This document shows, piece after piece, positions 7,569 through 55,589 of a stretch of 64,000 bases of DNA. The stretch is from assembly GCA_032622095.1 (NCBI GenBank), contig CP136062.1, positions 133,443,282 to 133,507,281 on the forward strand, given 5' to 3'. The translations under genes were made by a program, and so were the position numbers. The first letter of the stretch is position 1. Each line of letters starts with the position of its first letter. The DNA is from Siphonodentalium dalli (lineage: Eukaryota; Mollusca; Scaphopoda; Gadilida; Siphonodentaliidae). The notes under the pieces were generated by a model. It was not told the DNA's origin. It saw only the letters and a list, made by a program, of their open reading frames with translations, and did no database searches.

Positions 7569-7869
7569 ATATGTGACCCGCCATATCAAATCCAGTCGTA
7601 AGTCGGGATTTTTTTACCCTGTGCCAATGCATTCTCTTATATATGCGAGTCGACCATAGGTCGCTCCCTGCAGGGTAATGGATGTTTTTTATTTTATGTC
7701 CTAAAAAATGTAAGAAACATTTATTAAAAAAAAATGATAAAAAAATTGTTAGGCCAATGCATTCTCTTATATATGCGAGGTGACCTATGGTCGACTCGCA
7801 TATATAAGAGAATGCATTGGCACAGGGTAAAAAAAATCCCGACTGGATTTGATATGGCGGGTCACATAT
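7569..7869. mobile_element. Inverted-repeat MITE with ATATGTGACCCGCC termini
   Basis: The left arm ATATGTGACCCGCCATATCA matches the reverse complement of the right arm GATATGGCGGGTCACATAT. The arms extend through 'aaatccagtcg', the 'cgggattttttt' block and 'accctgtgccaatgcattc', about 75-80 bp. The interior is the same double-hairpin module ('gccaatgcattctcttatat') found in the TTAA elements at 10411 and 20761, although these termini are different. It is non-coding and lies just downstream of the SMC3 stop. Confidence 0.75.
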
Positions 7870-7999: not shown

Positions 8000-8220
8000 T
8001 TAACCCTTTCATGACGGCATCATTAAAGATCCTGTGCCAGTGCATTCTCTTAACATATGCGAGTCTGCCATAGGCAGCCTCGCATATAAGATAATGCACT
8101 GGCTTATTAAGTCAAGGCAAATATTGTTAGGCCAATGTATTCTCATATATGCGAGACTCCCTATGGAAGAATGCATTAGCGTTTTTTTCGCAAAATTCAG
8201 GAAGCTTCAGTCATGGAATA
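8000..8220. mobile_element. TTAA MITE family a, decayed right end
   Basis: The left end TTAACCCTTTCATGACGG is clear. The interior has the 'tgtgccagtgcattctctta' palindromes. The right end 'ttcaggaagcttcagtcatg' is the degraded inverse of the family terminus, and its flanking TTAA is lost. Confidence 0.65.
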
Positions 8221-9190: not shown

Positions 9191-9360
9191 TCGGTGTGAT
9201 TTGAATGTTGTTTTATTCAATCAACTTGAGATGATGGTGCCATTCACCGACATCAATATTTAAAATTCAATAAATATCTGTCAATTTTATGTCAACCATT
9301 GTCAATTATTGAACAACACAACAGTATTCTGATCAACCAATCAGACATAATTTGCAAAAC

Positions 9361-10045
9361 CTGGGTAACATAATGCCAGCTATATCAAACCTGGGTAACA
9401 TAATGCCAGCTATATCAAACCTGGGTAACATAATGCCAGCTATATCAAACCTGGGTAACATAATGCCAGCTTTATCAAACCTGGGTAACATAATGCCAGC
9501 TTTATCAAACCTGGGTAACATAATGCCAGCTTTATCAAACTTGGGTAACATAATGCCAGCTTTATCAAACCTGGGTAATATAATGCCAGCTTTATCAAAC
9601 TTGGGTAACATAATGCCAGATTTATCAAACCTGGGTAACATAATGCCAGCTTTATCAAACTTGGGTAACATAATGCCAGCTTTATCAAACCTGGGTAACA
9701 TAATGCCAGCTTTATCAAACTTGGGTAACATAATGCCAGCTTTATCAAACTTGGGTAACATAATGCCAGCTTTATCAAACCTGGGTAACATAATGCCAGC
9801 TTTATCAAACTTGGGTAACATAATGCCAGCTTTATCAAACTTGGGTAACATAATGCCAGCTTTATCAAACCTGGGTAACATAATGCCAGCTTTAACCTGG
9901 GTAACATAATGCCAGCTTTATCAAACTTTGGTAACATAATGCCAGCTTTATCAAACCTGGGTACATAATGCCAGCTTTATCAAACCTTGGTAACATAATG
10001 CCAGCTTTATCAAACCTGGGTAACATAATGCCAGCTTTATCAAAC
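9361..10045. repeat. 30-bp minisatellite, about 23 units
   Basis: The unit is CTGGGTAACATAATGCCAGC followed by TTTATCAAAC. Units 1-17 are in perfect 30-bp register; unit 18 (from 9871) loses six bases, and five more follow from 9897, one of them 29 bp. The first three units carry CTATATC instead of CTTTATC. Several middle units alternate CTGGG and TTGGG, indicating dimer-level amplification. Because 30 is a multiple of three and the unit lacks stops in several frames, open frames up to ~185 codons appear on both strands; these are not regarded as genes. Confidence 0.97.
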
Positions 10046-10312
10046 CTGGGTAACGCAGTTACCAAACCATTGGATAACGACCAATTGAGCTTTAGTATTG
10101 GTAGGATTAACTTCCTGTCAGCAAGCCAGTCAGCTATCTGCTGTCGTTCATGTGAAAATTGTTTGTATGAATGATGTTCACTCATGAGGTGCTATCTGTT
10201 TTAACTCATCCATCACATATCGCCATTGTAAATCATACCATCATTTTAGTGCTTCATTGGTCTCATGTCCATATTGTTACATTATCAATGTCATGAAAGA
10301 AAATTCAGAACG

Positions 10313-11869: not shown

Positions 11870-12070
11870 CCCTTTTATGACGAGCTTCCTGAAATTTTTT
11901 GAAAACCCTATGCCAATGCATTCTCTTCTATATACGAGTCTCCCACAGGGATCTTCGCATATATTAGAGAATAAATTGGCTTAACAATCTATTAACCATG
12001 ACATTGTAAGTCAATGCGTTCTCTTATATATGCGAGGCTCCCTATGGGAAACTTGCATGTATTCAAGTGA
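11866..12070. mobile_element. TTAA MITE family a, 3' truncated
   Basis: It begins TTAACCCTTTTATGACGAGC and contains 'ccaatgcattctcttctata' palindromes. Similarity ends near 'gaaacttgcatgtattcaag' without the right terminus. Confidence 0.6.
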
Positions 12071-13806: not shown

Positions 13807-14250
13807 TTAAAGATGCATAATCCAAATTAACGCTCCCAAATTACTATTTTTTTGGCTTCGGGCGTACAAAATATTTTGATTCCAGTCGAGAAACCCACCC
13901 ATCAAAGCTCAAGAGTGATCACATATCGATTTTTGAAATTTGTTTTTTTCCTGAGATATGAAATTATTTGCGGCCTAGCAAATATTCGTCAAGCCGACGT
14001 CTCAGACCAATTTGCGGATGAAAATGGATGCGGTTCTAAAAATCAAGTGGCTTTGGGTGTTAAGATATTTGACAATCCGACTAATTTGGTTGAACAAAAT
14101 GTTTTGGGCAATTTGACATTATATTTGAATGTGGTTAGCATTATTTTTGGGCAATTAATCGATTCTGATAACTGAAGCAACATTTCAAAAAGATATTGTT
14201 GTTGGAATCTGATGATATGGGGACCATCGAATCGGATTGAATACCTTTAG
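13807..14250 (+). mobile_element. TTAA MITE family d, copy A (intact empty-site reference)
   Basis: It starts TTAA then AGATGCATAATCCAAATT and ends 'atcggattgaatacct' then TTAG (a mutated TTAA). The ends are imperfect inverted repeats (AGATGCATAATCC against AGGTACACAATCC in copy C). The same internal text recurs in copies B and C (34921-37851), where it is interrupted by other elements, so this copy shows the uninterrupted sequence. It is non-coding. Confidence 0.72.
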
Positions 14251-18130: not shown

Positions 18131-20042
18131 GCCTGTATTGTTGACGAATCACACACGGACGACAAAGCCATGGCAATAGCTCAAACTTTACAAAGTAATG
18201 TTGAGCTAACAATAACGAAAGTACTAGACCTATACTGCAGGTTATCTGAGTGTTGAAGCTTTTCTCGGGAGTTTTATCTCGATTTTTTGCCAACAACTGA
18301 GAACCTTTAACGTTCATGTATGAGCATACGGCCAATGTAGCAAAGTTTATGCTGGAGGGGCAGTGGGTTCCACGACTATTCAACATCATCTCCAAGTCAA
18401 CTAATCCCCATATTTCGCAGAAAGATGTAGATAAATATTTCATTGGTAGCAATCATTGATGCATGCAGTGTACTTCCATATTTATCGTTGCCCATATGTA
18501 TAAAGCACAGGATTACGATGGACCCCAAATACGACTGCCTGGTCACGATTAAGGTATTGTAAAACATGTTGCTGATCTAGATATTCAGTCATCACGCGAG
18601 GGACAGCTGAATATATATAGCCTGTCAACATTGATAGATATAATGATAATGTGCATGTTATAATAAATTTAATATGACCATATGCTAGCGTAATTAACGA
18701 ACCACAGCTAAAACACACGCATAAGCTAGGATATATCTGTGTCTCTTTAATCCTATAAAATAACAAAGGTTCATCAACAGAGTGGGTCCTATAGCAATTT
18801 CGTGTATAAATTAGGTCATTCATATCATGCATCAATTAAGGCATGTGAGAAATCAGAGATTCACAATGCAAACAGACTACGAGCTCACCGACTCAGACTT
18901 AAAACTTAAATAAAAAACTTTTAAAACCGTTCATTTTGAACAAATTATTACAGAATATAAACTACCAACATCAAACTGAAAGTTTTCAAAAGTCAAGACT
19001 GTTGGTTGTTGTCTAGAGGGGAGTATTTTACTGAAATTAACCCGGCATTATAATATATATTTATGCTGGGCACAATCCGATTGAGATGTGTACTATACGA
19101 AGAAGCTTGTCGATTTCATAAAATGCCATCAAAACGAAACATGACGAACAATGTCATCATGTAGCTTTAACCATCGATCGAATTTGCGATAACGTGAATG
19201 TATCTTCTGCTGTGTTCATAAGTATGTGTTTCTTGTCGATTCATGAAAATAGAAGGATATCTGAGGATTATCTGACTCACGTATGTAATATGTAATATTA
19301 GGATAATTTAAACGCGATATAATAACGTTCGCTTGCATCATGAATGTCGATTTCGATTCCAGTATTGTCCCCAGCACAGCCAGAGTGATTGAGATTTTCC
19401 CATTGCACGCGACATTTATATTTAGGCCACTCCAGTGCAAATATTTGACAGTCCATAATATGTTATAATTATGTTCTCAATAAAATGTAAACCGCAATTA
19501 CGAATGAACTTTACTGTGCATAATTCCAATAGTAATTCCCCTCATTTTGGAACGCCGGCCATTGAAAGACGCACACGTTTATTTCAGATTACGACATTAA
19601 TGCTTTAGGCCCACCAATCTACTGTGCGACATAAGCGCTCACAAAAATTCAAAACAGCAGTGTCGTATTAGATAATAATTGGTGACGTCACAAAATCAGA
19701 TATAGTCTAAAAACCCAAAGCGTCCGGCTTTGGTTCGTTATGATAAACAGCTGTGATAAATTGCATATCCAACACATTGAAATGGGCAGATGCTCAATTT
19801 GTCTAAGAAATTACTTCAACACCACCCCTAGCTCATATTTCCACTGACACATTCTCCTACCCAATCCACAGATTATTGCCAATGTTACATATCTCTCCCA
19901 CCAAATAAAACCAACAGTGAATGATAAACAAAAATATATTTGATTTGCCAAAATTGACCTCCAGTGGACTATTTTATGGAAACTATTTTTCAAGGAGATG
20001 CACAATGATAGATATTGCCTTATTCTGAAAGATGTTGAAGTG
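18131..20042. other. No recognised gene; one dispersed-repeat match near the end
   Basis: Open frames up to 117 codons occur but carry no recognisable motif. The stretch 19835-20010 resembles 2925-3060. The rest holds nothing I can identify. Confidence 0.5.
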
Positions 20043-20270
20043 TACAGTAATGCCCTAAATAATCGACTCCTTAACCACAGCAGAATTATAGTTAATTTTT
20101 CAGGATTTAATCGGAAATATGGCTTGTTGCCATTCATCGGAAAGCTCTCACTGAGCTTTCCTCACTGAGCTTTCCATGAATGGCAACAAGCGATATTTCC
20201 GATTAAATCGTGAAAAATTACCCATAATTCTGCTGTGGTTAAGGAGTCGATTATTTAGGGCATTAATGTA
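20043..20270. mobile_element. Tc1/mariner-like hairpin MITE (TA, CAGTAATGCCC termini)
   Basis: The left end is TA then CAGTAATGCCCTAAATAATC; the right end is GATTATTTAGGGCATTAATG then TA. It is a near-perfect foldback of ~105 bp per arm with loop 'cggaaagctctcactgagc'. Other copies are at 22098-22309 and, as a half element, 33745-33856. TA flanks and a CAGT start fit Tc1/mariner-type mobilisation. Confidence 0.8.
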
Positions 20271-20760
20271 CATCACTAAAAGCCATCTGTTTGATTCTGC
20301 TTGGTTTATACGCTGGTACTCGCAAATATGTTGTCAAACAAAGCATGTAGATATGATGGTATCCCGATATAAATACACATATAAACCTTTTCAGGTTGTC
20401 AAAAATAAAACATTTATTTGTGATTCCTTGAACGAATCGAATCCACTTATATTAACTTATATGTTCATAATTTGGGCTCAAGTTATGGGATGATTTACCA
20501 ATATTAGATATTTACAGTTGGTTACAAAATTTCTTTCAGATCCGATAACCAATGACGGATATCTGGTTATTATCTGCATGTAAAAAAAATATGAATAATC
20601 CACAAAAACTGTAAATTATGGCTAGCCAACGCAAATATACATTGATTTTCCTATTGTTGGGTTTGGTGTTTTATTGAAACCACAAACCAGAAAAAGTATT
20701 GACAATTAAGAAAGGAAGCATCAACAGCAAAGCAGACTTCTGGTTACTGCTAATGAACTA
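20271..20760. other. AT-rich, no recognised feature
   Basis: Nothing beyond short open frames is visible between the flanking miniature elements. Confidence 0.5.
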
Positions 20761-21154
20761 TTAACCCTTTACCCAACAAAACGGCCAAAACCGGCCAAAT
20801 AAAGCTTCAACAGCCTAAAATATCTTCGGTCTGTCTCAATAGACCATACAAATATGGATATCATTGGAACCGGCTCCTTGACCACAGTGTGATAGTTACA
20901 GTTATGCCCTGTGCCAATGCATTCTCTTATATATGCGAGTCGACCATAGGTCGACTCGCCTATGGTCGACTCGCATATATAAGAGAATGCATTGGCCTAA
21001 AAAAAATCTTTTTTTCTTACATTCTTTAACAATTTTATAATTTTTAATGTGTTAAGCCAATGCATTCTCTTATATATGCGAGGCGACCTATGGTCGACTC
21101 GCATATATAAGAGAATGCATTGGCACAGGGCCCTTCTGTTGGGTAAAGGGTTAA
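20761..21154. mobile_element. TTAA MITE family b, second copy
   Basis: It starts TTAACCCTTTACCCAACA and ends GTTGGGTAAAGGGTTAA. Relative to 10411-10791 it is inverted: the unique arm ('gaccatacaaatatggatat') is on the left and the two hairpins (20908-20997, 21055-21128) on the right. High similarity over the full length suggests recent activity. Confidence 0.9.
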
Positions 21155-21190
21155 TGAAGGTAAGTGTTTTAGTGAGATCTGGTAATATTC

Positions 21191-21952
21191 TTAACCCTTC
21201 CATGACTGGAGCATCCACAAATTTTGCGAAAACACTGTGCCAATGCATTCCTTTATATATCTGAGTCTCCCATAGATAATCTTGCATATATAAGAGAATA
21301 ACTGGCCTGACAATAATTACCCTGTCCTTGTAAGCCAATGAATTCTCTTATACATGCAAGGCTCCCTATGGGAGACTCGCATATATAAAAAAAAGCACTG
21401 GCACAGGATCTTTAATGCTGCACCAGCAAAGCTCCCGTCCAGACATGTTTACTTCTGGAGTGCCAATTCCGGGAGATCGTTCTTCCAAATTTGGAAAATC
21501 TGGCTCAAATTCAGGAGATTTTCCTCAAATTATTACCAAATAATGTATAATAAAATAATAATAATGTGAATAACAGCATAACATAACTTTAATATATCAG
21601 TTTAAATTGTTTCTAACCGGATGAATAATTATGATGCTGTGCACATGGTCAGTAAAACAATGTGGTTTCTTTGTGTCCACCCTAATTTAATTGAATGAGA
21701 GGTGTCATGAGTTAAGCTTTGGATAGTGGGGTCAGATTAATTACCCCAGGCTAATTGCACAGCCTGTTTTCTTTGCATTTCTGTTGCCTTTTTGTGACTG
21801 TTATTTTATGTTGGTTAGCTTCATTTATTGAGGATATATTAGTCTTTCAATTTTACTGAATTCGGGAGAAACTGTTTTCTGATTGGGAGTGCGGGAGATG
21901 GGGTTGGATTTCGGGAGACTCCCGAAGTATGCTCCCGTCATGAAAGGGTTAA
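21191..21952. mobile_element. Long TTAA element of family a
   Basis: The left end is TTAACCCTTCCATGACTGGA and the right end is GCTCCCGTCATGAAAGGG then TTAA. At 762 bp it is the longest family a member here. It has the hairpin module on the left (21235-21410) and ~500 bp of additional, non-coding sequence including repeated GGGAGA blocks on the right. Confidence 0.75.
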
Positions 21953-22097
21953 ATGTGATTGCTGACTGGAGGCTTGGAACTGTTTGACCAAATGAAATTT
22001 ACTTTGGCCATTTTCCAAAAAAATTGGCCATTGCCAGTGCAAACACTGACCATCAACAGAATCATCTGTAGCCTAGAAATTATTAATAATAAAGAGG

Positions 22098-22309
22098 TAC
22101 AGTAATGTCCTAAATAATCGACTCCTTAACCACAGCAGAATTATGGGTAATTTTTCAGGATTTAGTCGGAATATGGCTTGTTGCCATTCATCGGAAAGCT
22201 CACAGAGCTTTTTGATGAATGGCAACAAGACATATTTCTGACTAAATCCTGAATATTTACCCATAATTCTGCTGTGGTTAAGGAGTTGATTATTTAGGGC
22301 ATTACTGTA
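22098..22309. mobile_element. Tc1/mariner-like hairpin MITE, second copy
   Basis: It runs from TACAGTAATGTCCTAAATAA to TTATTTAGGGCATTACTGTA, a foldback of ~100-bp arms with a short loop. It is the same family as 20043-20270. Confidence 0.82.
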
Positions 22310-29849: not shown

Positions 29850-30447
29850 ACACACACACATATGAAGATTTCATGCCACTACATAAGAGGCACACACACA
29901 TTATGAAGATTTCATGCCACTACATAAGAGAGACACACACACACATTATGAAGATTTCATGCCACTACATAAGGGACACACACACATTATGAAGATTTCA
30001 TGCCTCTACATAAGACACACACACACATGAAGATTTCATGCCACTACTTAAGAGGCACACACATGAAAATTTTGTGCCACTACATAAGAGACACACACAC
30101 ACACATTATGAAGATTTCATGCCACTACATAAGAGGCACACACACATTATGAAGATTTCATGCCACTACCTATGAGGCACACACATTATGAAGATTTCAT
30201 GCCACTACATAATAGACACACATATTATGAAGATTTCATGCCACTACATAAGAGACACACACATTATGAAGATTTCATGCCACTACATAAAATGCACACA
30301 CACACATTATGAAGATTTCATGCCACTACATAAGAGACACACACATTATGAAGATTTTATGCCGCTACATAAGAGACACACACACATTATGAAGATTTCA
30401 TGCCACTACATAAGAGGCACACACACATTATGAAGATTTCATGCCAT
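29850..30447. repeat. ~40-bp CA-rich minisatellite, about 15 units
   Basis: The unit is 'attatgaagatttcatgcca' then 'ctacataagaggcacacaca', with variable CA length. The last unit (30428-30447) overlaps the 3' end of the zinc-finger coding sequence on the minus strand and supplies its stop codon. The short frame with MKISCHYI repeats on the plus strand is an artefact of the array. Confidence 0.95.
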
Positions 30448-32809
30448 GCACTTGCTGGATATGTTTATTCATATTTCCCCTTTGACTGAACATCCTGCAG
30501 CAGATGTTGCACTTAACCGTATTCCCAGCATGAATATCCCTGGCATGCGTCCATAGCGTAGATCTACGTGTGAATGTTTTTAAGCATATATCGCACTTAA
30601 AGTCCCTACTTCCACTGTGCACAACAGAATGAGCCTTGAGCTTCACGTTATCTTTGAAGGTTTTTAAGCATATCAGACATTTCTTCAGTTTTGGCTTTCC
30701 TTTATTATGACGTACCATATGAAGCCTCATAGTTCCTTCATAAACAAATCCCTGTTTGCAAATATTGCATTTAAATTTCTCCTCACCGAAATGAACTAAT
30801 GAATGTTTCTTCAGTGATTTATCTAAGCCAAAACTCTTCATGCAAATCAAACATTGATATGGTTTCTCATCTAAGTTGTGTGTCAAATTGTGCGCTTTCA
30901 AGTCGACAAATCTTTCATCGCATCGTATGCACTTGTAGGTCCTTATTTGGGTATGGGACTTCATGTGTCTATTTAGTTCAGCTTGCGACACGTATGCTTT
31001 CTCACATTTCTCGCAGCTATAAGGCCTATAATTGGAGTGTTTCATCAAGTGGCGCTTTAATGTCAACTTTGCACTGAATTTTCCATCACATATTGTGCAA
31101 TGATGATAGTTTCCTCCTGTATGAATTTTCCTGTGGCGATTTAAGTTGCTTATATTTTGAAAAGTTTGTTGACATATATCGCATTCGAATGCCCGCTCAC
31201 CTGAATGGGTCACGGCGTGCGATTTCAGTCCAATCTTGCTGGAGAACCGTTTATGGCATACTAGACACTGGAATGGCTGAATTGAATCATGTACGTCCAT
31301 ATGCTGACTCAAATGTGACTTTGTCTTGTACCCTTTTCCACAAATTGTACATTTGTATGGCCTTAAGTTAAGATGCAACATTGTGTGGCTTCGCAGATCA
31401 GACTCTCTAACAAATCCTCTCCCACACTCAGAACATTTGTGAAAAAGTTTGCCTGTATGCCGCGCCTCGTGACTCTGAAGACTCTGCTTTGATGTCAAGG
31501 CCTTATCGCAGTAGGAACATTGGAAACGCTTGATTCCCTTGTGGCTCAAAATGTGTACAGTCAAGTGGCTATTTTGAATGAAAGCTTTGTTGCATATTTT
31601 ACAGCTATAGGGTCGATCTTTTGAATGTGAATCCTTATGTTCCAGAAATTTAGCTCTAACATAGAAATTCATGTCACACTGATCGCAGTTGTACAATAAT
31701 TTATCTCCATTTGACAGCAACTCTTTGTCATTAATAATTGGATTCGGCCATTCTTGATACGAAGTTTCCTTAAGGTTATCTACATTTTTATTTCCAGTAC
31801 TAGGAAGACCACTATGTTTAGCCGATATACGTCCTTTTTCTGAAGAGGACTTATTGTGACGCCGATTCTTATTTCTATTTAATAGTTGCACATTAACTTG
31901 TATTGAATCCTCTGTCAAAGCTTTTAACTTCATCTTTGCTTCTGCATTTTTATTCAAACCAGACAAATGAGAATGTTCCTGTATTCTCTTGGTCAAATAT
32001 GATGGAAGATCAGTAGAAACATTTTCAGGTTGGCAGGTTGGTTGTGCTGATACTTTATTTTTCTTTCTTAAGCCATATGATTCTTTCCTGTCTCTTGAAC
32101 CTAGCTCTGATTTTAGAATCAACAGACTCTCATTGGAAGTGGACTGCAGCGTACTGTCTTCAGCTATTTGAACAGTTCTCTGTGATGTATTGGCTTTATC
32201 TTTCCCTCTTTTCTCAGATCCTAAGTTTACATCACATGACTCTCTTTCATGCACCTCTGATTTCTCCCCTCTGTTATTCAATTCTGTTGTGGCAACATGC
32301 TCAACCGTCCACTTTCCAGGTTTTTCATTTTGATTATCTGCTGTGTTATGTTCTGATCGTTGTCGCATATGTTTTTTATCATTTCGTCCAGCTTCATATA
32401 TATCTGGTCTGCACTTATCATTTTCTTCTCTCTTTTCATAACCAGCAGATTCTTTTTCATCTTCCTGTAAATTTCCTACAGAATATTTTCTGTTAGACTT
32501 AGCTGTTTTAACTTCATCATGCCTGTTTTCAATTTTGCTTTCATTTGCCTGACCTTTTGTGGAGTACGCTGATTCAGTGCTTTTGTGTCCTGTTTGATCA
32601 TCATCACTATCATGGATGTATGTAGCTTCATCTTCGCCGAACATTTCTTCATCAAAACAATCATGGACATATTTTCCACCTGCCATATCACTCTTTGGCA
32701 CATCATAAGCATAAAGCTCCAACCCAGAGGCCGTCCTTGTTGTCAAATATGGCCACATGTTGATGTCTCTCAATAAAATGCCCTGGTGTATGCTGTCTGT
32801 TTGTTTCAT
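30428..32809 (-). CDS. C2H2 zinc-finger protein, 15 fingers, 793 residues
   Basis: This is a single open frame encoding a probable nuclear DNA-binding protein; the target and role are unknown. Residues ~1-370 are low-complexity and charged, with an acidic patch near residues 49-72 (DEEMFGEDEATYIHDSDDD) and no recognised KRAB, BTB, SET or ZAD domain. From ~371 there are 15 C2H2 fingers, e.g. YSCKICNKAFIQNSHLTVHI, most with the usual C-x2-C-x12-H-x3-H spacing; the linkers are variable and only occasionally like TGEKP. Finger 10 (~624-643, CIRCDERFVDLKAHNLTH) lacks three residues of the finger loop. The start at 32809 is preceded by an in-frame TAA, and a CTGTTGCAG acceptor-like site on the minus strand ends at 32852, suggesting an upstream 5'-UTR exon. 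The stop is inside a minisatellite. Orthology was not assigned. Confidence 0.9.
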   Translation of the reverse strand: MKQTDSIHQGILLRDINMWPYLTTRTASGLELYAYDVPKSDMAGGKYVHDCFDEEMFGEDEATYIHDSDDDQTGHKSTESAYSTKGQANESKIENRHDEVKTAKSNRKYSVGNLQEDEKESAGYEKREENDKCRPDIYEAGRNDKKHMRQRSEHNTADNQNEKPGKWTVEHVATTELNNRGEKSEVHERESCDVNLGSEKRGKDKANTSQRTVQIAEDSTLQSTSNESLLILKSELGSRDRKESYGLRKKNKVSAQPTCQPENVSTDLPSYLTKRIQEHSHLSGLNKNAEAKMKLKALTEDSIQVNVQLLNRNKNRRHNKSSSEKGRISAKHSGLPSTGNKNVDNLKETSYQEWPNPIINDKELLSNGDKLLYNCDQCDMNFYVRAKFLEHKDSHSKDRPYSCKICNKAFIQNSHLTVHILSHKGIKRFQCSYCDKALTSKQSLQSHEARHTGKLFHKCSECGRGFVRESDLRSHTMLHLNLRPYKCTICGKGYKTKSHLSQHMDVHDSIQPFQCLVCHKRFSSKIGLKSHAVTHSGERAFECDICQQTFQNISNLNRHRKIHTGGNYHHCTICDGKFSAKLTLKRHLMKHSNYRPYSCEKCEKAYVSQAELNRHMKSHTQIRTYKCIRCDERFVDLKAHNLTHNLDEKPYQCLICMKSFGLDKSLKKHSLVHFGEEKFKCNICKQGFVYEGTMRLHMVRHNKGKPKLKKCLICLKTFKDNVKLKAHSVVHSGSRDFKCDICLKTFTRRSTLWTHARDIHAGNTVKCNICCRMFSQRGNMNKHIQQVHGMKSS

Positions 32810-33400: not shown

Positions 33401-33744
33401 AGTGGAGGAAAAATGTACCGGATTCATGCAATATATGTCTGGGAACCTCATTCCTCAAATGAGAGACACACTATAATCAGGCTTGATTGTGATAGATGGC
33501 AAGGTATTTTTCTTGAAGATGTATTCAGTGCTTGGGGCCCAATATTTATGAAACCTATTATATTTCTTATTAAGATTTGGAACAAGATGTGTCACCCGAT
33601 AGACATTACCTTGTCTGATATTGATTCTTATATCCAATAACCTCATATAGTTTTAATGTTCAGAAGGACAACAATAATTATTATGTTAACTTTGCAACAT
33701 TATTTCTGTTTTAACCCTTTCTTTACTAAATATTCATCAGAGAG

Positions 33745-33856
33745 TACAGTAATGCCCTAAATAATCGACTCCTTAACCACAGCAGAATTATGGGTAATTT
33801 TTCAGGATTTAGTCGGAAATAGGGCTTGTTGCCATTCATCGGAAAGCTCTCACTCA
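33745..33856. mobile_element. Half of a Tc1/mariner-like hairpin MITE
   Basis: It starts TACAGTAATGCCCTAAATAA and follows one arm of the element at 20043-20270 to 'catcggaaagctctcact', then stops; the second arm is missing. Confidence 0.75.
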
Positions 33857-34920: not shown

Positions 34921-36431
34921 AAGATGCATAATCAGAATAAACGCTCCAATATTACCGGTAGTATATCTTTGGCTTCAGGGGTAAAAATTATTTGATTCGA
35001 ATCGAGGAACCCACCCATCAAAGCTCAGAGTGATCAGATATTGATTTTTGAAATTTGTTATTTCTCGAGATATGTACTTATTTGTGGCCTGGAAAAAATT
35101 GTCAAGGCAACGGTCTCAGACAAAATTGCAAATGAAGATGGAACTCTAAACTCAAGTGGTAATACAGCCAAATTTTGTGAAAATCAATTGATAATACAGC
35201 CATATTTCATTGAACAACATGTTGATAAATAACACGTTTTGGGAAATTTTATACCATAGTTGGTATATTTAATTAATCGATTCTGATGGCTAAAGCGTAT
35301 TTCGAAGAAATGTTGTTGTTGTTGTAACTTGATGATATGGCAGGCTTTCCGCCAGGTTTTGGGGAATGGGTCCTGTATCCGCCGAGGGGGAAATGCAGTC
35401 AATGTTTTCCATATGTCATGGAAACACTAGTGGAGCTACTTTTGTTGTTTCGGCCAATAGAAGAATCAGAGAGTAGATTTGCTAATCGTTTTGCATCCAT
35501 TTTTACCCAAGTTACTATGCTATCAACTGCAATAACTTTAAAACCTAGAAAATTTATTAGATAAAATTAATTGTCAGGTTAATGTCACCGGTGATGAAGG
35601 CATTGCGTTGTTCCCAGTATACGGAATTCGCGTCCGTTGAAGTTAAATGACTCACTATTCAAGACTCGGCAGATAGTTCGGATGCATAACGTGCCGGAAT
35701 ATAATACTCCGCAGATAGACAATTAGCAGGTTGGAAGCAATGAAAGAATAGAATAAAGGCGCAATGTTTTAGTTCTAAATTATCAAGCTAAATTATAATA
35801 AACATAGATAAGATGCTTTGAACAAAATGGAGTGATATATATATTTTACGACATGAAGATAGAATCAGCGGGTATGATTAAATTATCGTTGGTCATTTTT
35901 CGTAACCTAACCGCAGCAACATAACCAGCGGACTCCAAAACATGTGTTCTAGCGATGTCGGGTTTCCATGATCACTTCCTCAGTTCATCTAACTGTCTGC
36001 AGGTTGGAATAGCAATATGCAATGTGCAGAGCCATGTGTGGTCGTTCAGAATCCGGAGCATTTCAGTAAAAACTAAATAAAGTGTACTCTATATACTAAA
36101 TGGAACACATCGACCCTACACGTTGAATGTTAGCTCCGGCCTACAGACATACTGACATCCAACTTTTAGTGTTACATGTAGATCGATCGGTCCGAGTGTG
36201 TATTCTCGCTAGAATTTCAAATAAAGTTGACAACTACCGGTATTTAAATTTCTTAGCACTGTCCCAACAAAATTGAGAAGTAAACATCTTTATACATATG
36301 GAATATGTCCTGTGGTATGACACAAGGGGAAAAATTGACTGTGGGGATGGGACCCTTAAACTTTAAAGGGACCCCCTGCCCTACTAGTGGAAAGCCTGGA
36401 TATGGGGACCATCTGATCGGATTGAGTACCT
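34921..36431 (+). mobile_element. TTAA MITE family d, copy B, split by an insertion
   Basis: The left part (34921-35340) follows copy A from AAGATGCATAATCAG to 'cttgatgatatgg'. Copy A text resumes at 36399 ('gatatggggaccatctgatc') and ends 'ggattgagtacct' then TTAA (36432-36435). The 1,058-bp interruption is a separate element (35341-36398). Confidence 0.75.
35341..36398. mobile_element. Inserted element with CAGGCTTTCC termini and GATATGG duplication
   Basis: The left end CAGGCTTTCC and right end GGAAAGCCTG are exact inverses. The flanks GATATGG (35334-35340 and 36399-36405) are duplicated relative to the single GATATGG in copy A at about 14214-14220. It is non-coding, with no transposase. 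A 7-bp (possibly 8-bp, since neighbouring bases are G) duplication with CAG...CTG ends suggests an hAT-like element, but the class is not certain. Confidence 0.72.
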
Positions 36432-36580
36432 TTAAGTGGAATTGAATTATGCCCATGCACATTTATGTATTTAAGTTCAGTTATATTAAAGGTACACAAT
36501 CCGATTTGATGGTCCCTGTATCATCAGATTCCATCAACAACATTTTTTCACAAGATGCTTTAGTTATCAGAATCGATTAA

Positions 36581-37553
36581 AGGCCCACTTAATTTTCGAA
36601 CCCCCAGATCACATTATATAAAATATATGCTATATTATATATCATTTGAAAGAGGAAGCTTATCAACTTATAAGCCTATCAACTTATCCAGTGTAATAAA
36701 CTGTGAACATGTTGTTTTTGTTGAGGTACCGACATGTTTTTTGCGCTTAATTTTCATCCGTATTGTAGTGCAAAGTGTACTATTTTCAATGGAAGGGGAA
36801 TAACTCTATATCTTAGTTTGAATTATGTTGTATTCTGGGAGTGAGACGGGATAATTGTGATGAATTATAGTATTCTAATCATATTTTATGTCATAGATTG
36901 TTATTAAAACCGTATATCAAGACACTATAAACAAAAATAATCAGTGACTTAAAAGGGATACTGTACCCAAATGTTGTTGTTGGTTTCTATAGTCTCTGAG
37001 TTGGAGAATAAGGTAACAATTTTTCCATTATTTGAAAGTCTGTTGAGTACGAAGTAGTGTTACGGATGGCAAATTTACCGGAATGAAAAATACAAATTGT
37101 TGTTGTCGAGTAATTTTTGTACAGTTTTCAACCAAATGTATCAAATAAAAGTTATATTATATGCATACTAGTCCCATATACTCATTTAAGTTATTGTATC
37201 TTCACTAGTCAGTGAGTGGCTTGAGTTTTCTCCCTGTATCAGCATAATGTTTTAAACGATCGTGTGTGCAATGGGTTTACTAATCCAGTATCCCTCAATT
37301 AATTTGATTACGTCTTGTACACGGAAATTCGTATTTTAATTTACGCCATTTTATGGCTCCAGCCACAAATTCAATTTATATCAAATTATTAACTTTTAAA
37401 TTATTAAATTTTAAGATAGCCTATTAACCTGAGCGTTTACAGAATACATCTTCGACTCAAATTACTTATGTTTCTATATATTATCGATATTAGATCGTTG
37501 TTATCACCGGAAATTTATTGAAAATGGCGTACAGTACCCCTTTAAATGGGCCT
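36581..37553. mobile_element. TTAA element family e (AGGCCCAC ends), host of family f
   Basis: It is flanked by TTAA at 36577-36580 and 37554-37557. The left end AGGCCCACTTAA is the inverse of the reconstructed right end, in which TTAA is immediately followed by ATGGGCCT. A second element (36953-37541) has inserted in that right-terminal TTAA. The remaining ~375 bp is non-coding. Confidence 0.7.
36953..37541. mobile_element. TTAA element family f (AAGGGATACTGTAC ends), innermost
   Basis: TTAA flanks are at 36949-36952 and 37542-37545. The left end AAGGGATACTGTACCC and right end GTACAGTACCCCT are inverted with one base shift. It is non-coding and the third level of nesting in this cluster. 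Confidence 0.68.
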
Positions 37554-38148
37554 TTAATTACCAAAAAATAATGCGTTCAACTCTTGTAAAAAAAAATCCA
37601 AAACGTATTATATTTCAACATTTTGTTCAACGTGATTTAGTATCGAGAGTATGTCGGTCGGCTCGTTGAGTATTTGCAAGGTCGCCAAATATTCCAACTG
37701 GTGAAAACTAACAGATTGAAAAAATTTATATTTGATAACTCTGAGCTTTGATGGGTGAGTTCCTCAACTCGAATCAAATATTTTTTACCCCAGAATCCAA
37801 CGAAATAGTAATTTTTTTTATTTAGAAAAGAGAATTTGGATTATGCGTCTATAAGGGCAATATATTCTTGCACTGTAGTCAGGCTTCATTTGATATGAGA
37901 AGCGAAAGCTGCGTCCGGCCCATTGCCATGTACGTACTGAATATATATACCGATTAACTTATAAATTGATAAGTGTGCATTTTTTTTATTGTGGATTTCC
38001 ATGTCATTTTCAAATTGTCTCTCAGTGTAAGATCTTTCATTGATCTTATTGGGTTCTTAAGGTGGTTCATATGCACTTTCATCTGTGACTCCCCATAGTA
38101 ATTTCTATCTGTGATGTAGGCCTAGCTCTCTCAATATCCTGCTGAACA

Positions 38149-38249
38149 CAGGCCCCTGGGGAAAATACTAAAATTTCAATATAGACTATACCAGTCACAA
38201 TACTGGTATAGTCTATATTGGTATTTTAGTATTTTCCCCAGGGGGCCTG
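38149..38249. repeat. ~45-bp-stem foldback
   Basis: The arm CAGGCCCCTGGGGAAAATAC continuing to 'tagactataccag' is inverted after an 8-base loop ('tcacaata') as 'ctggtatagtctatattg' to GTATTTTCCCCAGGGGGCC. There are few mismatches, so it would form a very stable hairpin. Confidence 0.85.
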
Positions 38250-46960: not shown

Positions 46961-49769
46961 CGTATTTTCGTTTCCGAAATGTTCCTAATCCCCTGTTACC
47001 GGTTATAGACGCCGTTTTTTTAGCGTTTGTGGTGAACCCGTGGAATTCCAGACCACACGTAATCTTTTGATGTTGGGCTTTTCCATTATGGCGAAAATTC
47101 ACGAAGGACTGGCATGGATATATATACTATGTAGTTTCCCATCTAATCGGTATAAGTAGTTAAATTGGGACTTCTGTCGACTTCAGACTGCTATCATCAC
47201 TGCCATCTTGCGATATAGGCACGCATCATTGAATGATGAACCCGATACTAATGATATATAATATTTCAAACTATTTTCTATTCTTATGTGTATATATTGA
47301 CAAATGCCAGTGATGTCTGAGACTGGGTGTTGTCGATATAAACAATTTATATTTTAACCCTTTCAAAACCGAATGGATGCGCCCATTCAGTTATATGAAA
47401 GCATGCATTGGGATAGTCTATTCCACATTAAGGGGCCAGGTGTTCTGATAATATAACAACCATGCCGTGTCCATGCGAGTATGCCAATATTAGGCAATGC
47501 GGTTTAGTTCTTTGCGATTCACAGTACAGTTGTGCTTGACATATAAGCCCATGCACACGGCTCAGCCATTTTACAATTCCGGCGGCGGAGATTGTTAAAT
47601 TTGGCTGGCGTTAGAAATAATATGGCTGGCGGCGGCTTGTGGCCAATATGGCTGGCGGCGGCGTACGGTGGCGGCTTCGGGCTCTAGCATGAACAAACCA
47701 TAAATAGTGACACCCCACTAATAGTTCCACGGGATTCCCTCACGTGATTGGTGGGGAATTCCCTATCAAGGGAGATATCATTGGTTCAATTTACTTCAGA
47801 GTATGGGAACGTGGATCATAAAAACTGGCTCATTTATTATCTTGACGTGAATATTGACAAGGAGTTTGGACTAATTTATTCATCATTATTCCAAATTGTA
47901 TAAAACATGTGTATAGTTTGAGGCATGAGGAAACAAACAAATATCGTATCATTTATAGTAATATAAAACTGCGACTTGGCTTATTGTCGTGAACTGAAGC
48001 TTGAAAACGCATGGGCTAATGGCGATCATTGTAAAAGAATCTTTGTGCAACATACACAAGTTCGCGGCTTCGCGTTAATACCCCATTAAAGAATAACACG
48101 CTGACCATGCGTGCCCTCATTCAGAGTAAGAGTTTGTCTAATGCTCATTCCCGGGCTGGCTTAGATAATCATTCCGATGTGACGTCATCCAGTAGAAGTT
48201 TGCAGACACGTGCAGTTAACTGTGTCACAATAATAGAGATAATCAAAGCTATTATACCGCAGTCATTGAATATCATGCACGTGTCCACAATTATTAGTCA
48301 GGTCAAGAACGCCCAATGTTTTGCTGCTCTTTTGCAGTTGAATTATCAGATACTAATACATATAATTTGATATAAATGTGTGACGGGGAATAAAATAAAG
48401 ACACACAGACACAGTGAGAATGTGGGTTTGTTTATTTTTTTTTTTTTATATCGGATTTATCATTTTTTTAGATTTAGTTTGCTCTGGCATTTTGTCTTGT
48501 TGTTTACCTGTGATTGCCGTCTGTTTCTCAAAATCCTGATGAAAAATGCCCCTCATGACATACCGATCCATAAGTCGCAGGAAGTTTTTAATAAGGGAAA
48601 TTGGGTTAGAAAGTTGCGACTTATAAGTTATATACATGTATACACCGGCCGGTACGGTAAATGGCGAAATTACAGATAAATCGGTCTTCATATATTTAAT
48701 TATTTACTGGTTTCCCCCATAGCAGCTACCGGACCCATTCCCCCGACCCCTAGCGGAAACCCTGCTTTAACTTGCATGTCATGACTTGGGGAATGGGGGA
48801 TGTTGGCATGAATTGCATATACATGTATACAGCATTCTTACTTCAATAATTTGATCAAATTAATCATCATTAGTGTCAGGTCAGAAAAAAAGTATGACAT
48901 ACAGCATTACAGGACAAGTGACATGTGAGATACTGTTTTGAACTTATGATATGTGTCATGCTGTCTCGATTGACCATATATATACTCTATAGATATGCTT
49001 TTGGAATATTTGACAGCTTCACTAGCCTTCATGCCTGACACACCTGGTGTTGTTTATTGGGAAATGCTTGTTGGTTGTTTTTGGGAAGGTGTACCGGTAT
49101 ATATACACGTTGCTTGGACTAGTCGATTGTGATCACTTAGTTTCATATAAAAGAGCATGGCTGATATGTGTGTGTCAATGTACAATCATGCAACTGACTT
49201 CACAACGTTCATATAAATGATGTCGAGACCCCCCCCCCCCCCACGCCTAAGTTATTACCACACAGACATCAGATTTAGCCTATATTAACCAATGTTGAGC
49301 ATGTAAGTAGCACCTACCCACTACACAGTCACTGCATGCTTAACTGTTAATTGCATGTATATTTACCAGTATTAAACTTGTACATTTGACATGATATGGA
49401 ATAAAATTGATTTCCTTGATGCCCAACGAGTATTTTATGTTTATTGCGTTGCTTGTGGGCACTTAAGGTATGAAGCGACAGAATACGTTACCATCGTCAA
49501 CGCGGCGCATGCTGTTAGTAAAATATAGATTTGAATCAACAGCCATTGCAGATAATATCCTTCCAAATTCATTAATTTATAATAACATACAATAATATAT
49601 CATTTCGTATATGCATGCCGCCACAAACATGTTTGCTTAATTTAGCCGTGGCAACCTATTATGCCCATACTTATCCACTGTGATTCCCATGGTGATGAAT
49701 CGGCAATTTCCAAAGATTGAGAAGATAATGAATTAGAGCACTAGTTTTGTGATCTTGGACGAGTTTCAT
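46961..49769. other. Intron 1 sequence, no recognised exon; GGC-rich patch at 47575-47690
   Basis: The patch repeats 'tggctggcggcggc'. TTAACCCTTTCAAAACCG at 47354 could be one end of a TTAA element, but no partner end was found. A 13-base poly-C run is at 49230-49242. Short open frames here have no recognised motif. Confidence 0.4.
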
Positions 49770-51089: not shown

Positions 51090-51836
51090 GTATAGTACTT
51101 AACTTTTGTTGATATTCCACATCTGATTATACTTTTTATAAACATTGACTTTAATAACAAATTATGGGGCAGACATAGAACTTTGTAGTTTTCACTTTAC
51201 TAATTCTGTATTCTCAGGTATGAAGATTTCAAGACTGTATTCAATTTTGTTCGATCATTCACAGATTTAAAATATTTAGCAATTTGATATTTAAAACTGA
51301 TATATTCATCTCGATACATGTACCTTGAAATCTTTAATTCTAGGTAATAGAAAATGCGTATTTCAATACATAATGTTGACTAAGCGAATAGCTATATTCA
51401 TAACTAAAATTTACATATAAAAATCTTTCTGTCATACAGGTACATGTACATGTCCGACAAGCTTTCAATGCATTGATGAAAAGTGCTAATTTTGACCAAT
51501 ATTACAAATTTCTTTATCGATTGACATAGTCAAGTTTGAGTTATTGCCATGGGTTGGCATATGTATGTGCATGTGTCAGTCGCTGTGTCAGTCAACAATT
51601 TTCTTTAGCATACCCTGCAGGCCACATCTCTCATTTGACCATCACCAAAATTTATATGGATCTTCGGGGTGTTCTCCAGATGGGAACCATCACTTTTTTC
51701 CAATTTGTTTTACAAATATGGTCACCAACAGCCATCTTGGATTTCAAATTTTAATTCAATAGCACACACTGCAGTTCACTTTTATTGGAGAAATGTTTTG
51801 AATATTTTACAGACCTCTAGATGGGTGCTATTGAAT

Positions 51837-52624
51837 TTTAATGATTTTCGATGAAAAACCATCTTGGATTTTATTCTTTGTATGACTAATCCTTTGGCAC
51901 TCCCTACAGACCACATCTGTTATCCGATTGTCACCAATCTTCATATGGATTTTCACGGTGACCACTAAATGGGAGTCATAAAATATTGTCCGAATTTCAT
52001 TGAAAAACAAGGCTGCCAGTCAGTGTTCGCGCTGGACCGAAAAATAATTTAGCCAAAAGTTTAGCCAAATGAGAATTTTATTAGCCAAATGAAAAAAACT
52101 TTAGCCAAATGTTTTTGGCCAAATTAAATCCTCATTTTCTGGGCGGTTCACAATTAATGACTAAAATATTTGCTTTAAACTTTATTTGTTACTCAGTATA
52201 AAAACGTAATTAAAACAACACAAAAACAAATTTAATGATTTTCGATGAAAAACCATCTTGGATTTTATTCTTTGTATGACTAATCCTTTGGCACTCCCTA
52301 CAGACCACATCTGTTATCCGATTGTCACCAATCTTCATATGGATTTTCACGGTGACCACTAAATGGGAGTCATAAAATATTGTCCGAATTTCATTGAAAA
52401 ACAAGGCTGCCAGTCAGTGTTCGCGCTGGACCGAAAAATAATTTAGCCAAAAGTTTAGCCAAATGAGAATTTTATTAGCCAAATGAAAAAAACTTTAGCC
52501 AAATGTTTTTGGCCAAATTAAATCCTCATTTTCTGGGCGGTTCACAATTAATGACTAAAATATTTGCTTTAAACTTTATTTGTTACTCAGTATAAAAACG
52601 TAATTAAAACAACACAAAAACAAC
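51837..52624. repeat. 394-bp perfect tandem duplication
   Basis: Two copies (51837-52230 and 52231-52624) appear identical by eye. Each contains part of the ~160-bp array unit, the octamer CTGCCAGT and the first ~210 bp of the hAT-like element. The edges share only a few bases (TTTA). Confidence 0.9.
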
Positions 52625-54117: not shown

Positions 54118-54559
54118 CTGCCAGTGGCCATCTTCGATATTGCTCATCATATAACTAAATCTTTTGGCATACTCGACAGACACATCCCTCTTCCAATCAA
54201 CACCAAATTTCATATGGATCTTCTGTGTGATATCTAGATAGGAGCCATCAATTCTTTTCTGAAATTCGTTAAAAAACATAACCACAAGCAGTCATTTTGG
54301 ATTTCAAATTTGAATCCATCGGCACACCCTGCAGCCCGCATTCATCTGAGAAATGGTTTCAAAATTTACAAGCATGTTTAATAGGATCAACTCGAGAAGG
54401 GAGCTATTGATTGGGACAGTAATTGTTACTATTTTAGAACACCAAAGCATGTTAAATATTTTTTACCTCTGGTATTGCTTAAACATGTAAACTTTCCACA
54501 TTGCTTGTCACTCCATTGACACTCATTTTTATTTGCCCGTTTGAAAAAATGGTCGTATT

Positions 54560-55160
54560 ATGTTAATGGGTTGTCCGTCCGTCCGTCTGTCTGCTTTTGG
54601 TTGTCCGTCCGTCCGCTTTTGGTTTATTTTTCGTCCGCATGATTTTGACTGAGCTATGCCCCTTTTTCGACTTAGATTTTACCTGATTTGCGGTTTCCGG
54701 ATGATAACTTTAGATTGAATCAAGTGAACTGAACCAAATTTTGTATATTAGTTTACCACCCCAATATACAGATCAAGTTCGAATATGGGTTTCATCTGCA
54801 TGATTTTGACTGAGTTATGTCCCTTTTTCAACTTAGATTTTACCTGATATGCGGTTTTCGGATGATAACTTTAGATTGAATCAAGTGAACTGAACCAAAT
54901 TTGGTATTATATTAGTTTACCACCCCAAAATACAGATCAAGTTTGAATATGGGTTTCGTCCACATGATTTTGACTTGAGTTATGCCCCTTTTTCGACTTA
55001 GATTTTACCTGATATGCGGTTTCCAGATGATCACTTTAGATTGAATCAAGTGAACTGAACCAAATTTGGTATACAGATCAAGTTCAAATATGGGTTCGGT
55101 CTACATGCCCCACTCTACTCCAGAAACAGGTGTATTATGCCATGCCCCGACGGCGTGCTC
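54560..55160 (+). repeat. CCGT-run repeat with ~170-bp units
   Basis: The head region 'tcgtattatgttaatgggtt' is followed by GTCCGTCCGTCCGTCTGTC, then three or four units of 'gacttagattttacctgat' and 'gatcaagttcgaatatgggt'. It ends 'attatgccatgccccgacg'. It is non-coding and lies in intron 2. Confidence 0.7.
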
Positions 55161-55589
55161 TTGTTTAAACTTTGTTGAGAACAATTCTTAAATGGTCTAC
55201 AGGTTAGCTTTGATTAAAAAAAAATGTATACTTGTAAAGTCGAAGGGAGATTTTCTGGATATTCTTATTTACAATCAAACCCAGCTTAATATATTAACAC
55301 ATTTGACTGCGGACTTTGAGTTATCTGATGCATATTTGACTATATGTGCTATGGCTTATTTTTACTTGGAATTTGAAATATTTGAGGTTTTTATTGGACG
55401 TAGAATGCACACAATTCTTGGTTTCTGCATTATAACTTTTAGTTATGTTCTTTAATCAGAGTGAAATTTGTTATGTGGATTAATTAATTTTATTCCTAAC
55501 ACTACCAATCTTGGAGTTAGCCACCTTGGAGTTAGTACCTTAGAGTTAGCCACCGTTTCAGGGGACACTGTGGTCAGCGACCTTTTATT

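Follow-up and report, generated by a model that had tools for sequence, protein, structure and literature searches.

Nested short DNA transposons in Siphonodentalium dalli, with much of the insertion order read from sister repeat copies and target duplications

The window analyzed here is a 64,000-nt stretch of contig CP136062.1 (assembly GCA_032622095.1, positions 133,443,282 to 133,507,281, forward strand) of the scaphopod Siphonodentalium dalli. Its GC content is 34 to 40% in 4-kb steps, TTAA occurs 530 times, dispersed and tandem repeats are numerous, and neither a tRNA nor an Rfam match at gathering score was found. A 793-aa C2H2 zinc-finger reading frame lies at 30428-32809 on the minus strand, with an array of ~40-bp units (29850-30425) adjoining its 3' end. 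Another tandem array, at 9230-10084, is made of 30-bp units (24 copies listed, family D2) and is open in more than one reading frame; a 300-nt repeat (51834-52133 and 52228-52527, spacing 394 bp) is listed as 100% identical between its two units. The segment 10313-11020 is an element bounded by TTAA whose 14-bp inverted ends, AGATGGTCTATCTC, are perfect; its internal units of ~80 nt recur at 1561-1735, 7617-7827, 8031-8106, 11906-12062, and 20759-21407. Three foldback elements, at 20041-20272, 22094-22309, and 33739-33850 (one arm only covered), have the common end GTACAGTAATGCCCTAAATAATCGACTCC, with one base different in the element at 22094-22309. A cluster of interrupted repeats occupies 34922-37850, and a ~100-nt inverted repeat (38149-38249, 88% self-complementary) adjoins it on the right.

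The cluster is built around two copies, B and C, of a repeat family that we call d, whose third copy, A, stands uninterrupted on the plus strand at 13811-14246 (436 bp), between TTAA (13807-13810) and TTAG (14247-14250). Copy B spans 34922-36431 on the plus strand, in pieces at 34922-35340 and 36406-36431 flanked by TCAA and TTAA, and comes to 445 bp once the element within it, h, and one copy of the duplication around h are set aside. Element h (35341-36398, plus strand, 1,058 bp) has 10-bp perfect inverted ends, CAGGCTTTCC, found in the window at its two ends only, and is bordered by GATATGG on the left (35334-35340, plus strand) and on the right (36399-36405, plus strand). After a spacer of 50 bp between the TTAA flanks of the two copies (36436-36485), copy C follows on the minus strand at 36490-37850, in pieces at 36490-36580 and 37558-37850 with flanks that read TTAT and TTAA in the orientation of d; it measures 384 bp without the elements e and f and one TTAA. 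Element e, including f, runs from 36581 to 37553 (plus strand, 973 bp), with inverted ends AGGCCCAYTTAA and TTAA at 36577-36580 and 37554-37557, and is 380 bp long without f and one TTAA. Element f (36953-37541, plus strand, 589 bp) has the imperfect inverted ends AAGGGATACTGTACCC and AGGGGTACTGTACGCC and is bordered by TTAA at 36949-36952 and 37542-37545, within the right inverted end of e.

With the inserts set aside, local alignment scores were 425 for A-B, 326.5 for A-C, and 314 for B-C, compared to maxima of 62, 57, and 66, respectively, among dinucleotide shuffles, and none of the 200 shuffles for each pair reached the observed score; A, B, and C are one repeat family. Identity over aligned bases in a three-way alignment is 75.2% for A-B, 74.7% for A-C, and 69.7% for B-C, and in pairwise alignments it is 84.7, 80.2, and 81.8%, respectively; these ranges, 70 to 75% and 80 to 85%, suggest that the copies are old. 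Site patterns in the three-way alignment are 51 for AB, 43 for AC, and 24 for BC, with 245 positions all alike and 21 all different, and a middle part common to A and B is absent from C. All three copies carry one perfect TTAA and one single-base variant of it as flanks (21 of 24 bases match), indicating that family d most likely made TTAA duplications as well. Copy A had no match in phage records at E values up to 0.01, and viral contigs searched for exact window strings of 20 nt and of 26 nt gave 0 matches each.

The alignments uphold the tail-to-tail arrangement of B and C that had been proposed from a first reading of the letters. They lie only 50 bp apart and are paired as inverted (138 nt, 77%) in the repeat listing, as would be expected of the paired arms of a single inverted duplication or composite element. 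The pairwise alignments place C slightly nearer to B (81.8%) than to A (80.2%), the three-way alignment places it nearer to A (74.7%) than to B (69.7%), and because of this disagreement on C's nearer partner we have raised the likelihood of a single duplicated unit slightly, from hardly credible to very improbable. Against that reading, A and B are the closest pair in both alignments and each copy has a TTAA-like flank on both sides. Neither alignment makes B and C look recently paired. Two independent insertions, at TTAA sites separated by 50 bp, are the simpler account.

The original prediction came with an alignment of the pieces to copy A as its check; that alignment confirmed the family, but joining 34921-35340 to 36399-36431 counts GATATGG twice. 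Insertion sites were located by one-jump alignment, in which a sister copy is aligned to the uncut span and a single free jump is allowed; very cheap gap extension between A and the uncut spans was discarded in its favor after the gap had broken into pieces with islands. Between A and the uncut span of B, the jump removes exactly 1,065 nt (1,058 + 7) and increases the score from 371 to 420; its 8 equivalent placements imply a 7-bp duplication of GATATGG, at 35334-35340 and 36399-36405. Once e and f have been taken out, the 3' part of C likewise removes 1,065 nt from B with a gain of 46. When the whole of C is used as a query, the jump is 100 nt and falls at another place, since C lacks the middle part of A and B. 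The h site is thus continuous in A and in C, and the claim that B was split by an CAGGCTTTCC-ended element that duplicated GATATGG is borne out by a jump landing exactly on that duplication. Elsewhere in the window, a 63-nt relative of the left end of h lies at 48702-48764 on the minus strand (77%), with the same starting CAGG (48764), and no right end was found for it, either by duplication or by similarity to the right 80 nt of h.

The e site was approached in the same manner. Whole A or whole B aligned to C jump elsewhere, by 920 or 923 nt, into the middle part missing in C and on account of its absence, and the 3' parts alone were then used as queries. The 3' part of A removes 977 nt (973 + 4) from C with a gain of 18, five of its seven tied placements falling on the TTAA borders at 36577-36580 and 37554-37557 and the other two 6 to 7 nt away. 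With the 3' part of B as the query, the jump removes 983 nt with a gain of 48, one side being on the border and the other 6 to 9 nt off. For this site only, random window queries of 131 nt served as controls (60 drawn, 4 dropped for overlap with the copies); the remaining 56 gave a mean gain of 18.8 and a maximum of 27. The gain of A is no better than the gains of these controls; the gain of B exceeds them, though with a query of 161 nt as compared to 131 nt for the controls. The e site is continuous in both A and B, and the proposed split of C at TTAA by e agrees with jumps that fall at the borders of e or less than 10 nt from them. Copy B, a second reference beyond the copy A named in the original prediction, documents the site better; A, which had been put forward as uninterrupted at both insertion points, is so at the h site and agrees at the e site in position, weakly by score.

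At the third level, e with f set aside has a left end, AGGCCCACTTAA, and a right end, AGGCCCATTTAA (read from the outside in), that are identical at 11 of 12 positions. It contains TTAA at four places, the first and last of which lie within its two inverted ends, and f occupies the last. Apart from a 32-nt weak match to e, neither e nor f recurs in the window, and the e/f boundary is accordingly drawn from ends and duplications alone. Because neither has another copy and the part of e past f is only 12 bp, e and f might be read as a single element that carries 12 additional bp at its end; this seems scarcely tenable, given that f has imperfect 16-bp inverted ends of its own with TTAA on both sides and that the outer 12 bp fit the left end of e at 11 of 12 positions. 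The end symmetry of e, the ends of f, and its TTAA flanks sustain the view that f split e at a TTAA of its right terminus, and from the same three features we infer that e probably preceded f. An uninterrupted reference copy for the f-in-e site is lacking in the window, so that the description of a three-level nest with readable empty sites holds for the nesting and for the h and e sites, and not for this one. It is conceivable, as a long shot, that the terminal repeats of e, each with a TTAA, act as landing sites for TTAA-targeting elements and lead to recurrent, self-limiting nesting; if true, such landings would disable the ends of the host element, and the insertion of f into e would be a case in point.

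These boundaries indicate that d was in place before h in copy B and that, in copy C, d preceded e and e preceded f. The proposed order of d, e, and f therefore stands; copy A is informative for the sites of h and e but not for f. Insertions can be ordered only within B or within C, and h cannot be placed before or after e or f. Precise excision from A, instead of insertion into B and C, would explain the pattern poorly, since two sister copies run unbroken through each site (A and C at the h site, A and B at the e site). We consider it highly probable that the cluster arose by five cut-and-paste insertions of short, apparently noncoding (nonautonomous) DNA transposons. Two copies of family d would have landed in independent events, at neighboring TTAA sites and in opposite orientations; h would later have entered copy B with a 7-bp duplication. 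Element e would have entered copy C at a TTAA, later than d, and f would have entered e at a TTAA belonging to the terminal inverted repeat of e. The cut-and-paste route and the transposase types are inferred: Kolobok-type transposases from elsewhere may have moved d, e, and f, and a hAT-like one may have moved h.

Read inward, all six ends of d, e, and f start with AG or AA, which corresponds to 5'-RR...YY-3'. The TTAA duplication is exact on both sides of e and f, and in d it is exact on one side and changed by one base on the other. Kolobok elements are described, in the part of the source we draw on (PMC9587614), as combining TTAA with 5'-RR...YY-3' termini, by which they are set apart from piggyBac; d, e, and f share this one signature. 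They resemble the nonautonomous Kolobok elements and T2-MITEs treated in the cited portions of PMC6004289 and PMC9587614 in their TTAA duplication, RR...YY termini, short length, and lack of a detected transposase. The T2-MITE terminal motif given there is AGGRR (PMC6004289), and among the six ends it is found only at the right end of f (AGGGG), whereas d has AGATG and AGGTA, e has AGGCC twice, and the left end of f has AAGGG. The filing of d, e, and f as T2-MITEs was dropped on this count. Assignment to piggyBac or another TTAA superfamily is unlikely. In its favor, TTAA duplications alone cannot separate these superfamilies and no transposase was found in the 10 frames tested; piggyBac would have termini other than RR...YY, and the ends seen here, 5'-AG or AA...CT-3', have the form that separates Kolobok from it (PMC9587614, as excerpted). 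A search of the whole window for TTAA-flanked RR...YY pairs returned 4, compared to 0 in 18 of 20 shuffles and 3 and 1 in the other two. It recovered e and missed d, whose TTAA flanks are decayed and ends imperfect, and f, whose ends contain an indel. Among the 4 pairs, that at 20239-22129 seems to join the ends of two neighboring foldback elements, and another lies at 54269-55455.

For h, the nearest likeness is to hAT elements, which begin with CAG in the accounts drawn on here of Buster1 (PMC4298943) and Mar (PMC3517528). Like the hAT MITEs of those accounts, h has a CAG start, short inverted ends, a length below 4 kb, and no detected transposase; its 10-bp ends and 1,058 bp fall within the 5- to 27-bp ends and the <4 kb stated for hAT in the portion cited (PMC3517528). 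The same portion gives an 8-bp duplication for hAT, whereas h has 7 bp, as read from the jump alignment at its one copy. An example command in the Repbase Update paper, as seen in the section cited (PMC4455052), retrieves hAT families whose annotated target site duplication is 7 bp, and h may therefore be within the known range. We describe h as hAT-like without assigning it to a superfamily, as its duplication falls short of 8 bp. Dada elements, reported in the excerpt of PMC3706591 to make 6- to 7-bp duplications, to lack terminal inverted repeats, and to target small RNA genes, were rejected for h, which carries terminal inverted repeats and lies inside a d copy, in a window without a tRNA or an Rfam match at gathering score. 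Twenty reading frames of at least 45 aa were listed for the cluster, and none of the 10 searched (51 to 80 aa) had a Pfam transposase match; two of the ten left out are 53 and 54 aa long. The search gave three weak matches (E = 0.064, 0.45, and 0.95), all to unrelated families.

The cluster supplies boundaries for four repeat families of S. dalli (d, e, f, and h) and illustrates clearly how nested insertions can be dated relative to one another; by itself it opens no new question. The passages on transposon families and nesting retrieved by subject searches, rather than by sequence or species, do not name the present locus. Nested MITEs are well documented, and we therefore rate the cluster as ordinary and of a common kind. 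A MITE inside a MITE with target duplications is described for DcSto in carrot in the part of PMC3695323 drawn on here; its reference list includes a title on nested maize and rice elements by Jiang and Wessler (2001). The present cluster is like these plant nests, as excerpted for DcSto, in having one MITE inside another and in its target duplications; it differs from them in being composed of TTAA-targeting and hAT-like elements, in belonging to an animal, and in being three levels deep.
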